From: an uncultured Oceanospirillaceae bacterium
Lineage (GTDB): Bacteria; Pseudomonadota; Gammaproteobacteria; Pseudomonadales; Balneatricaceae
Assembly (NCBI GenBank): GCA_913052465.1
Contig: CAJXEN010000004.1
Location: 1-37,484, forward strand
Direction: 5' to 3'
DNA: 37,484 nucleotides
This document shows positions 7,840-23,013 of the stretch, piece by piece; position 1 is the first letter of the stretch; the number at the start of each line of letters is the position of its first letter. The notes under the pieces were generated by a model. That model searched no databases. It saw only the letters and a program-made list of their open reading frames with translations, and was not told where the DNA came from. Made by a program: the position numbers and the translations under genes.

Positions 7840-7863
7840 GTGAATTGCCTCTACAAATAATAA

Positions 7864-7897
7864 GGGTGCCTATAATCGGGGTGCATTATAGGCACCC
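7864..7897 (-). terminator. Perfect 13-bp inverted repeat between phoR and the DUF47 gene; terminator that contains a -10 box
   Basis: Arms GGGTGCCTATAAT (7864-7876) and its exact complement (7885-7897) with an 8-base loop. In the minus direction the stem is followed by TTATTATTTG, consistent with a rho-independent terminator for the mnmE-phoB-phoR transcript. Each arm also carries TATAAT, so one sits in -10 orientation for DUF47-pit on the minus strand. No good -35 hexamer lies 16-18 bases upstream (ATATTA at 17), so any promoter here would need an activator such as PhoB; I see no clear Pho box. Confidence 0.65.
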
Positions 7898-7939
7898 TTT
7901 GTTAAGGTAATATAAAGATTGTGAGTTTTTTTGAATTAA

Positions 7940-14527: not shown

Positions 14528-15991
14528 ATGTCACAAGCAGTATGGCAACAGTGTTTGGCGCGTCTTCAAGACGAACTGCCAAGTCAGCAATTTAATACTT
14601 GGATTCGACCGTTGAAAGTTAACGAAGAAGGCCGGGTGATACAATTGCTAGCGCCTAATCGTTTTGTGCAGGACTGGGTTAGGGACAAGTACTTTTCTAG
14701 AATACGTGAACTTGTGGCAGATTACGCCACAGATGCAACTCAAGGTGTGACATTAATAGTAGGTCCCTCTGGGAGTGCTTCGCCGAGGGTCAATGCTACT
14801 GGTGATCAGTCGCGCATCATCACCCCACCTACTTTCGTGCCTAGTGCTCCTTTGGCCAGCACTATGGCTAGTCAGTCCCCGCTAAGGCAAGAGCGTGCAA
14901 TAATCCAACCACAGCTACCGTTAGGCTCAGCGGCTGAGCGGGTGGTCCAGGTAGAGGGTTCAGTGCGTCACCAGAGCTATTTGAATAGAGCGTTTACTTT
15001 TTCCAGTTTTGTTCAAGGTAAGTCCAATCAATTGGCGTTAGCTGCAGCTAAGCAAGTGGCAGAAAATCCTGGTAGTTCCTACAATCCTTTGTTTTTATAT
15101 GGTGGAGTTGGTTTAGGTAAAACCCACTTAATGCACGCAGTTGGAGCGGCTTTAATTGAGCGTAACCCAAATGCGAAAGTGGTTTATTTGCACTCAGAGC
15201 GGTTTGTTGCTGACATGGTTAAGGCCTTGCAGCTAAATGCGATCAACGAATTTAAGCGATTTTATCGTTCGGTTGATGCTTTGTTAATAGATGACATACA
15301 GTTTTTTGCAGGAAAAGAGCGCTCTCAAGAAGAATTCTTTCATACCTTTAATGCTCTTTTAGAAAGTGGTCAACAGATGATATTAACCTGTGACCGTTAC
15401 CCCAAAGAAATAGCTGGTTTGGAGGACCGTTTGAAGTCACGGTTTGGTTGGGGCCTAACTGTGGCAGTAGAGCCCCCTGAGCTAGAGACGAGGGTGGCGA
15501 TCCTATTGAAGAAGGCTGACGAGGGTAATATAGCATTGCCAGAAGATGCCGCTTTCTTTCTTGCTAAGAAAATCCGCTCTAACGTACGTGAGCTGGAAGG
15601 TGCCTTAAAGCGTGTGGTGGCTAATTCGCATTTCACTGGTGAGTCAATTACTACGCCTTTTATACAAGAGTCTTTGCGAGACCTGTTGGCGCTCCAGGAC
15701 CGTCAGGTTAGTATTGACAATATTCAGAAGACTGTCGCTAGCTACTATAAAATTAAAATTGCTGATCTTTTGTCTAAACGTCGGTCACGGTCTGTGGCTC
15801 GTCCACGGCAGTTGGCTATGGCTTTGGCGAAAGAACTAACCAATCATAGCTTGCCAGAAATAGGTGATGCTTTTGGAGGCCGCGACCATACTACAGTATT
15901 GCATGCGTGCCGAAAAATAAAAGAGTTACGTGAAGCCGATCGTGACATTCACGATGATTATGATAATTTATATCGCTCGTTAACTGTCTAG
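14528..15991 (+). CDS. dnaA: Chromosomal replication initiator protein DnaA
   Basis: AAA+ initiator (487 aa). Domain I about 1-80 ([24 protein letters not shown]), variable linker about 80-150, AAA+ domain from about 155 with Walker [10 protein letters not shown] at 192-200, Walker [10 protein letters not shown], sensor LKSRFGWGL, and C-terminal domain IV with the DnaA signature [14 protein letters not shown] that reads the DnaA box. Length is normal. The ATG has no recognisable Shine-Dalgarno sequence (upstream TTTGGCTTTACTTTATAT), so initiation is weak or leaderless; no in-frame earlier start exists nearby. First gene of dnaA-dnaN-recF-gyrB. Confidence 0.98.
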
Positions 15992-17254: not shown

Positions 17255-18343
17255 ATGTCTGTTCAGCATCTGAGTATTCAGCGGTTGCGTAACCTACAAC
17301 AAGTGGACGTTGAGTTTGATGTAGGCATCAATCTGCTTTATGGACTAAATGCCAGTGGCAAAACTAGCATTTTAGAAGCACTGTACATGCTCGCTTTAGG
17401 GCGCTCTTTTCGGAGTTTAAAGTTGGCTTCTGTTATTACCCAAGGTCACACAGATTGTCTGCTGTTTGCAAAGCTTAGAAACCCCCAGGGTGTTATTGAC
17501 TCATTAGGTATGACCCGTCGTTTGGATGGTGACCATAGCGTGCGCCTCAATGGTGAAACTCTATCTTCTATTGCGGAGCTTGCGAGCCTATTGCCTGTGC
17601 AGCTAATCGACCCTAGTACTGTGGGTTTGATTGAGGCAGGTCCAAGTGTTCGTAGGCAGTATTTAGATTGGGGAGTGTACCACCATAACCCCAGTTTTTT
17701 TGGCCTGTGGAAGCAGGCCCAGAGGCTACTAAAACAACGTAACAGCGCGCTTAAATGTGGTACAATGGCCGCCACTGTAAGGGCTAGTTTTGACCCGGGC
17801 TTGGTAGTTGTCGCGGAGCAGTTAAATAAGCTTAGAGCGGCGTATTTGAAGCTCCTTGAGCCGGTTTTCTTCCAGTTACTGTCTGGCTTGGTAGATTTGC
17901 CAGATTTAAAGCTAGGTTACTATTCTGGTTGGTCTGCAAATCGAGATTATTCCGACATACTTGAAGAAACCTTGGAGCGGGACTTGCGACTTGGTTATAC
18001 TCAGCGTGGTCCCCAGCGTGCAGATGTTAAACTAACGATCAATGGCGTTAACGCTGTTGAGCGCTTGTCCCGTGGTCAGCAAAAGCTGGTTGTGGTAGCG
18101 CTTAAGCTTGCCCAAGGCAAGTTATTAAGCGAGGTAGAGGGCCGCAAGTGTGTGTTTTTGGTTGACGACTTAGCAGCTGAGTTGGATTGGTCCCATCGGC
18201 GAGAGATATGTAGACAGTTAGTGAATTTAGACACGCAAGTGTTTGTCACTAGTGTGGGCCCTAATGAGCTAACGGGTTGTTGGCCAGAAGGTGAAAAAAT
18301 AAAAATGTTTCACGTGAAACAAGGACAAGTCAGTCAAGACTAG
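17255..18343 (+). CDS. recF: DNA replication and repair protein RecF
   Basis: SMC-like ATPase (362 aa) that loads RecA at gapped DNA with RecO and RecR. Walker A GLNASGKT at 30-37, ABC-type signature SRGQQKLVVVALKLA near 273, Walker B VFLVDDLAAELD near 296, all in the expected order. Start ATG 17255-17257 with an AGG about 11 bases upstream. The C-terminal KMFHVKQGQVSQD is encoded across a perfect parS palindrome (18306-18321), so the last residues are constrained by a DNA-level signal. gyrB follows after 62 bases. Confidence 0.97.
   Translation: MSVQHLSIQRLRNLQQVDVEFDVGINLLYGLNASGKTSILEALYMLALGRSFRSLKLASVITQGHTDCLLFAKLRNPQGVIDSLGMTRRLDGDHSVRLNGETLSSIAELASLLPVQLIDPSTVGLIEAGPSVRRQYLDWGVYHHNPSFFGLWKQAQRLLKQRNSALKCGTMAATVRASFDPGLVVVAEQLNKLRAAYLKLLEPVFFQLLSGLVDLPDLKLGYYSGWSANRDYSDILEETLERDLRLGYTQRGPQRADVKLTINGVNAVERLSRGQQKLVVVALKLAQGKLLSEVEGRKCVFLVDDLAAELDWSHRREICRQLVNLDTQVFVTSVGPNELTGCWPEGEKIKMFHVKQGQVSQD
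18306..18321. promoter_or_regulatory. parS site (ParB/Spo0J binding) inside recF
   Basis: TGTTTCACGTGAAACA, a perfect 16-base palindrome and exact match to the bacterial parS consensus (TGTTNCACGTGAAACA). ParB clamps load here and spread to organise and segregate the origin region. It encodes residues MFHVK of RecF, so the same bases serve two roles. Confidence 0.92.
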
Positions 18344-18402: not shown

Positions 18403-20823
<2,421 letters not shown>

Positions 20824-20848
20824 TGCCAAAAAGAGAAAATCTAACAAT

Positions 20849-20876
20849 AAAAAAGCCTCCATATGGAGGCTTTTTT
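20849..20876 (+). terminator. Rho-independent terminator after gyrB (bidirectional)
   Basis: GCCTCC/GGAGGC stem extended by A-T pairs to about eleven base pairs with an ATAT loop, followed by TTTTTT on the plus strand and by a matching T-run on the minus strand. It sits between the convergent gyrB and glyS genes and can serve both. Confidence 0.9.
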
Positions 20877-20916
20877 GTAGCTGGAGAGTCATTTACGCAT
20901 TAAGTGTAAACTTACG

Positions 20917-20944
20917 GGATGATGTTTCACGTGGAACATCATCC
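20917..20944. promoter_or_regulatory. Second parS site with extended palindrome, between gyrB and glyS
   Basis: TGTTTCACGTGGAACA at 20923-20938 read on the minus strand is TGTTCCACGTGAAACA, again an exact match to the parS consensus. Six more bases on each side also pair (GGATGA at 20917 and TCATCC ending at 20944), making a 28-base inverted repeat with only one non-pairing position per arm. It is intergenic, 2.6 kb from the recF site. Confidence 0.9.
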
Positions 20945-20964: not shown

Positions 20965-23013
20965 TCAACCAGCTAACAAACTGATGTCTGCAACGCGACC
21001 GAGCTCTAGCTGAACTTCAGCCAATAATGCAAGACGGTTGTTCTTTACGGATTCGTCATCAGTCATTACCATAATATCGGAAAAGAACTGTTCTAATGGA
21101 CCAGCTAAATGGGCTAATTGTTGCAGTGCATCATGGTAATTGCCCTGATTAATAGCAGCCAAATTCACCCGCCTAACTTCATTCAACGACTCTGCCAAAG
21201 TAACCTCAGCTGCTTCCGTTAATAACATAACATCAAATGCGGCATCACCATTGCCATTCTTGCTAAGGATATTAACAACTCGTTTATTACTGGCTGCCAA
21301 CGCGGGTGCGGCTTTAAGTTTCAAGAACTCACTTACTGCTTGAACCCGTTTGTTAAAGTCTAAGGGCGAATTGGTTTTATTTTCCATGACCGCAAAATAA
21401 ATATCTACCGCAACATTTTGATCCTCATAGTAGGCCCGTAAACGATCAAAAATGAAATTTAACAACTGAGGCCGTACTTTCTCTAAAGGAGCTGCAAGGC
21501 TATTATGTAGATCATAAGAGGCGTTTATTAGCACACAAAGGTCAAGTTCTAAGTCCTGCTCAATAATAATGCGCAATAAACCTACCGTCGCACGGCGCAA
21601 CGCATAGGGGTCTTTGCTACCAGTAGGTGGTTGTCCGATACCGAACAGTCCCACAAGAGTGTCCAGTCGATCAGCAATAGCAACAGCGCTAGCGACAGGG
21701 GATTCTGGCAGCTGATCACCAGAAAACTTGGGCCAATAGTGCTGCTCTAAAGCTGCCGCAACGGTGTCATCCTCTCCATCATTAAGTGCGTAAACGTGAC
21801 CCATTAGCCCCTGCAGGTCACTAAACTCGAGTACCATATTAGTATTAAGGTCTGCTTTGCATAGTGTCGCTGCACGAGCTGCAAGCAGGCTGTCGGTACC
21901 AATAAGTGAAGCGATTTGGCTGGCCAAATGAGCGACCCTTTGGGTCTTCTCTAATACCGTGCCTAGTTCTGCTTGAAACACTACTTTGCCTAAAGCGGCA
22001 TTGCGACTTTCTAGTGTGGTTTTTTTGTCAGTTTCAAAGAAAAATACGGCATCAGCAAGCCGTGGCCTAATCACCCGCTCATTACCAGCAATAACACGAC
22101 TTGCATCCTTACTGATAACGTTACTGACAGTCAAAAAGTGTGGTAAAATATCGCCATTATCATCTACAAAATGGAAGTATTTTTGATGTTCTTTCATAGA
22201 TGAAATTAATGCCTGTGCAGGCAGTGCCAAAAATGAGTTATCAAATCGACCTGTTAAGCAAACAGGCCGCTCCACTAAACCGGTTACTTCGTCGAGTAAC
22301 TTGTCATCAATTACAGCACTAGCCTTAAGAATCTGGGCTTGCTCTAATATTTGTTTATGGATGATTGCTTTACGCTCTTCGAAGCTAACGATCACATGTT
22401 GCTTACGTAGCTGTTTGGCATAGGTGAGTGGTGACTCAATAGTGATGTCGCCCTGGCTATGAAAGCGATGGCCACGACTAGTATGGCCGTTACTCAAATC
22501 GAACAACTGCGTGTCTACAAGCGCGTTTCCTAATGAAAGAATGAACCACTGTACCGGACGCACGAATTCATTTCTGGATATGCCCCAACGCATCCGCTTA
22601 GCAATTGGCAAGTTAGCCAGCGCTTTATCAATGATCCCTGCTAAAAGGTTGAGGGATTCTGCGCCTGGTATGTGCCGTTCAAATTCATAATATTGGCCTT
22701 TATCGGTATCAACAACCGTTAACTCACTAAGCCCAACTTGGCAGGACCGAGCAAACCCCTGCACTGCTTTTTCTGGAGCCTTAACTGACGGGCCGCGGCG
22801 ACTATCTTGGCGGTCGGCCTGACGCGTTTGTAAAGCTTCAATGATTACTGTGAGACGGCGGGGAGTAGCATAACGAGTAACGTTTGCATGGGCCAAGCCT
22901 AACTCTTTCAATTGACTGGTAATACTAGTTTCCAGTGCTTTAGACAAGCTGAGTAAAGACTTAGGTGGAAGTTCCTCAGTCCCCAGCTCAAACAAAAAAT
23001 CTGCGTGGCTCAT
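20965..23013 (-). CDS. glyS: Glycyl-tRNA synthetase beta subunit
   Basis: Beta chain (682 aa) of the tetrameric alpha2-beta2 class II glycyl-tRNA synthetase, needed for tRNA recognition. N-terminal [16 protein letters not shown], then RTSRGHRFH-like [11 protein letters not shown] near 182, [26 protein letters not shown] near 273, and [37 protein letters not shown] near 448-485 are all typical. Start ATG 23011-23013 overlaps the glyQ stop (ATGA) and has AGGAG upstream. Length is close to the E. coli protein (689 aa). Convergent with gyrB. Confidence 0.98.

Follow-up and report, generated by a model that had tools for sequence, protein, structure and literature searches.

Species-specific, covarying arms around a parS site between gyrB and glyS, and their possible origin in template-switch mutation

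The window, meaning the whole stretch of 37,484 nucleotides that was analysed, carries dnaA (14528–15991), dnaN, recF and gyrB (18406–20823, plus strand; NCBIfam PRK14939/TIGR01059), all facing rightward, and glyQ-glyS facing leftward. The glyS gene, for glycine-tRNA ligase beta, occupies 20965–23013 on the minus strand (NCBIfam TIGR00211), and glyQ was likewise confirmed by NCBIfam. The closest named relatives are Oceanospirillaceae / ASP10-02a-like MAGs. One record titled Verrucomicrobiaceae (L047) has a glyS 49% identical to that of the window, a level in keeping with the other gammaproteobacterial matches, and its title may be wrong. The gap between the convergent gyrB and glyS genes holds a bidirectional intrinsic terminator, AAAAAAGCCTCCATATGGAGGCTTTTTT (20849–20876), which an automatic terminator scan missed, apparently since its stem includes the A/T tracts, and a parS site within an extended inverted repeat (20917–20944). 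Read in the sense of glyS, the gap starts with the glyS stop; the parS core follows 26 nt later, the terminator A-tract a further 46 nt on, and the gyrB stop comes last. A similar arrangement is seen in ten close relatives, where parS lies 16–33 nt past the glyS stop and the terminator further on towards gyrB, separated from the core by 24–61 nt (10 of 10 checked). In the glyS direction parS precedes the only terminator seen, and glyS transcripts should therefore cross the site, whereas gyrB transcripts alone would stop before reaching it. The preliminary description of this DNA, which rightly placed the repeat beside a bidirectional terminator between convergent genes, regarded the spot as shielded from transcription; this would hold for gyrB but not for glyS. 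The repeat itself has no T-tract after it on either strand in the window and is ruled out as an intrinsic terminator, that role belonging to 20849–20876. A known RNA was also considered as its identity and rejected: an Rfam search gave no family above threshold and only sub-threshold matches, centred on the terminator within 20762–20915.

The repeat at 20917–20944 reads GGATGATGTTTCACGTGGAACATCATCC and is laid out as GGATGA-TGTTTCACGTGGAACA-TCATCC. Thirteen of its 14 pairs are complementary, the sole mismatched pair lying inside the core, and the symmetry ends beyond the six outer pairs formed by the left arm (GGATGA, 20917–20922) and the right arm (TCATCC, 20939–20944). In the inverted-repeat listing of the window it is I6, with 14-nt arms that are 93% complementary. 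The longest fully complementary inverted repeat in that listing is at 7862–7899, a perfect 15-bp stem with an 8-nt loop, between two minus-strand genes. The core (20923–20938, plus strand) matches the parS consensus TGTTYCACGTGRAACA exactly, reads TGTTCCACGTGAAACA on the minus strand and, across the genus, recurs between these two genes. Core matches with three or fewer mismatches, counting both strands, number 5 against 0.22 expected. The preliminary description, a second parS within a 28-base extended inverted repeat and with this minus-strand reading, is correct on these points. At local composition, six contiguous complementary flank pairs would arise by chance with a probability of 2.8e-4.

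The first parS, TGTTTCACGTGAAACA (18306–18321, plus strand), occupies the last codons of recF and has no complementary arms. It is 2617 bp from the second, and the two are the only exact parS sites in the whole assembly (2.29 Mb, 210 contigs, 84% complete). By its sequence, the core at 20923–20938 is an ordinary parS of a chromosomal ParABS system and belongs to an origin-proximal pair in the dnaA-dnaN-recF-gyrB neighbourhood. A parB gene is present in this genome (G000:C142, match 1.2e-55), ParB is encoded in 13 of the 15 genus genomes, and an alignment shows its DNA-binding domain, with the HTH region, to be nearly invariant across the genus; ParB would be expected to bind the core in the cell. 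The earlier proposal that the two sites, 2.6 kb apart, make up a ParB nucleation cluster is very plausible, because at least two exact parS sites occur in 14 of the 15 genus genomes, the exception being a 72% complete draft. The spacing of the pair is smaller in some of these genomes.

Around this core, the letters of the arms change from species to species while their pairing is kept. At the homologous site the arms are CGATTTAA/TTAAATCG in L022, AATCAGGTCAA/TTGACCTGATT in L023, CACTTTGA/TCAAAGTG in L024 and TTTAG/CTAAA in L018; pairing is looser in L019 and L021, and there is little in G002 and L020. Arm letters are different in nearly every species of the genus, and each of the ten outer pairs varies in both arms among the 14 genus sites. 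For these 14 sites the covariation score is 0.540, against a shuffled mean of 0.244 (0 of 500 as high) and a maximum of 0.216 in slid alignments; covarying pairs, which a selected RNA hairpin would also show, are present here. In the ten closest species, a species' own arms pair at 66 of 100 positions, compared with 34.7 when one arm is taken from another species (p about 5e-5, which is the floor of 20,000 shuffles). Between L022 and L024, which are sister species in the gyrB tree, three of the eight arm pairs have changed on both sides and none on one side only, although at a distance of about 0.2 substitutions per gyrB site the differences may be the sum of several events. The picture is less tidy for other close pairs: L019 and L021 show one-sided changes only. 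In the Neptuniibacter parS-like sites L028:7773, L029:7773 and L318:2170, an outer base of the core is broken and the CTCAG/CTGAG arms are intact; therefore, arms can outlast the core.

The arms depend strongly on where the site lies. In a first sample of 117 distinct sites, with gene context taken from a simple ORF caller rather than a trained gene finder, complementary runs of at least four pairs from the core were found at 12 of 46 sites between convergent genes, 4 of 25 between co-directional genes and 2 of 41 in coding sequence. Thus, coding parS sites are mostly unpaired and intergenic ones often extended. Over eight flank positions at 71 intergenic sites, 221 of 568 are paired, against an expected fraction of 0.25. 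None of the 71 clean intergenic parS sites of the family sample lies in a gap between divergent genes, and most are between convergent ones. In the samples at class and phylum level, parS is mostly in coding sequence and few of the intergenic sites are extended. A group of Porticoccaceae/Cellvibrionales-like records (L045, L050, L051, L054, L071 and L073) has parS in the recF tail with covarying arms inside coding sequence.

Arm extension is not specific to parS, because some terminators carry perfect arms that run past their T-tracts, into a stretch where a transcript, once released, could not form pairs. In the gyrB/glyS gap, the counterparts of the window's terminator have arms that remain perfect for 14 bases past the T-tract in L024 and for 11 in L022, and the outermost bases differ between the two while being complementary in both. 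The terminator of L118, from another genus, has 8 complementary bases past its T-tract, and the genus hairpin catalogue includes further cases. Terminators of this kind, bidirectional and with perfect complementarity 6–14 bases past the T-tract, were recorded at L022:7127–7175, L024:7124–7179, L285:17165–17206 and near position 1579 of L118. Over about 0.87 Mb of the genus, the density of hairpins with at least 11 perfect pairs is 1.9 per kb in convergent gaps (a figure in which the parS and terminator palindromes are themselves counted), 0.33 in co-directional gaps, 0.14 in divergent ones and 0.006 in coding sequence. Terminators and parS also meet directly in some genomes. At L124:1490–1530, the stem of a canonical intrinsic terminator has parS as its inner part (AAAAAGCCC-AA-[parS]-TC-GGGCTTTTTT), and in Neptuniibacter, Marinobacterium and others (L032:7099, L036:7100, L039:7102, L117:1501) a terminator U-tract runs straight into parS (TTTTTTTGTT[TC]CACGTG).

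The explanation we favor, with a rough probability of 0.55, is that an ordinary ParB site has seeded a palindrome, which template-switch mutation lengthens and homogenises in 3'-end DNA that is free of constraint. A parS site is a perfect or near-perfect palindrome and, when single-stranded, could fold into a short hairpin. Template switching at this hairpin during replication would turn one flank into a reverse-complement copy of its partner, and the unconstrained DNA past the glyS stop would be the setting in which arms can grow. Such events would lengthen the palindrome and later re-homogenise arms eroded by point mutations, and the outcome would resemble RNA covariation without needing an RNA function. 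We infer this cause from the covarying arms, their mismatch with ParB, their near-absence from coding sequence and the parallel with terminators.

A possible trace of the process is seen at the same locus in another genus of the family, in L101, L102 (flanking protein 96% identical) and L103 (90%). The left arm CAGAG is common to L101 and L103, and the right CCG is common to L102, L103 and the more distant L313. In place of CCG-, L101 has a right arm CTCTG, the complement of its own left arm, while L102 has in place of CAGAG a left arm CCCGG, the complement of its own right CCGGG. By parsimony, L101 and L102 would descend from an unpaired ancestor, with the right arm apparently rewritten in L101 and the left arm in L102; the case consists of a single trio picked out among many sites. 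The pattern would be the footprint expected of replication template switching, which produces such footprints in RNA stems (PMC8794818). That palindromic protein sites such as parS seed templated palindrome growth in non-coding DNA, giving strong RNA-like covariation without RNA or protein function, is offered tentatively, with chances a little under even; the scarcity of extended intergenic sites outside the family counts against the favored explanation and against its generality.

The main rival is a selected hairpin at the 3' end of the mRNA, which we consider rather unlikely. The extended palindrome would be an RNA hairpin in the 3' UTR of glyS, selected for protection of the mRNA end, slower read-through or termination, with parS reused as its inner stem. 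The position of parS shortly after the glyS stop and ahead of the terminator, in 10 of 10 close relatives, is as expected for such a hairpin, as are the conservation of pairing while letters change, the concentration of extended hairpins between convergent genes and the placing of parS within the stem of a T-tract terminator in L124. However, the window hairpin has no T-tract of its own, a strong terminator already follows, G002 and L020 have no stem despite the same gene order, no Rfam family scored above threshold, and the terminator arms extend past T-tracts, where an RNA function is not expected.

Mismatches offer a further way to separate RNA from DNA, as G-U should be better tolerated than A-C in the transcribed strand of a selected hairpin. 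With the sense strand as assumed, G-U and A-C mismatches number 60 and 61 at the 71 intergenic sites and 9 and 14 at the extended ones, while 12 and 4 are counted in terminator-like hairpins taken from these sequences. At a 3:1 ratio, nine or fewer of 23 has a probability of 2.8e-4. The genus alone has few mismatches, leaning to G-U in the glyS sense and too few to decide. In the recF-tail group, over positions 1–9 in the recF sense, there are 6 G-U and no A-C, which favors RNA there and counts against template switching; pooled with the extended sites, the counts are 15 and 14. Overall, the counts tell against a strong RNA constraint, but not finally, because the nearest stop codon was used to set the sense strand and convergent genes may be transcribed both ways, which weakens the test.

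Selection for a hairpin or cruciform at the level of DNA, at an origin-proximal spot where it might buffer supercoils, stop a polymerase or load SMC, is improbable. It would account for pairing that is conserved without overall strand bias, and for long hairpins being commonest between convergent genes, where supercoiling collides, but some species of the genus have no arms and unrelated terminators behave alike.

Less probable again is that ParB or a cofactor makes additional contacts with the arms, which would raise affinity or loading here. The preliminary description had suggested that they might raise affinity or bind another factor, and that arms varying freely among relatives would tell against this. 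The letters do vary freely, while the pairing is kept. The arms are symmetric and directly adjoin the core, and the paired sites might be of unequal strength, but the arm letters are species-specific whereas the DNA-binding domain of ParB hardly varies, and different, unpaired flanks surround the recF parS of these genomes. In addition, published ParB-parS structures and binding assays employed duplexes of 20–24 bp centred on the palindrome (PMC7383237, PMC5815017). A search of the literature on ParB flank effects and on parS with a terminator or hairpin turned up no account of symmetric arms. To the extent that sequence can show it, these are not ParB affinity arms, and extended ParB recognition was rejected on the contrast between species-specific arms and an almost unchanging protein domain. 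Chance complementarity of the flanks, the least probable explanation, could appeal to a window chosen after the fact and to a single-site probability that is small but not extreme, but it is refuted for the genus by the covariation (0 of 500) and by the tests of own against foreign arms.

If the template-switch explanation is true, these sites would form a natural series of one palindrome at many stages of growth and decay, with a centre that is unable to change, and a clean place to measure how template switching mutates the DNA of wild bacteria. DNA palindromes could then give rise to covariation, a signal that is often accepted as proving RNA structure, and around such sites covariation would not by itself be evidence of a selected RNA structure. 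If the RNA hairpin is true instead, parS would also serve in a hairpin at the mRNA 3' end, and no description of such a double role was found in the literature searched.

Compared with known systems, the site shares with the chromosomal parS of ParABS (TGTTNCACGTGAAACA) its core sequence, origin-proximal place, membership of a small cluster and a genome-encoded ParB, and differs by its complementary arms, which are outside the consensus and vary between species. With bidirectional intrinsic terminators between convergent genes it shares the gene gap, the palindromic form and, in relatives, arms that extend and covary, but the parS palindrome of the window has no A/T tracts and its centre matches a ParB site. 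Template-switch (quasipalindrome) mutations that make or maintain hairpin stems, described in PMC8794818 and at E. coli quasipalindrome hotspots (PMC7202029), have in common with it multi-base compensatory changes, apparent rewriting of one arm and extension of a palindrome. The present case differs in being read from sequence comparison, not from individual events, and in its seed, which is a conserved protein-binding site and not an RNA gene.
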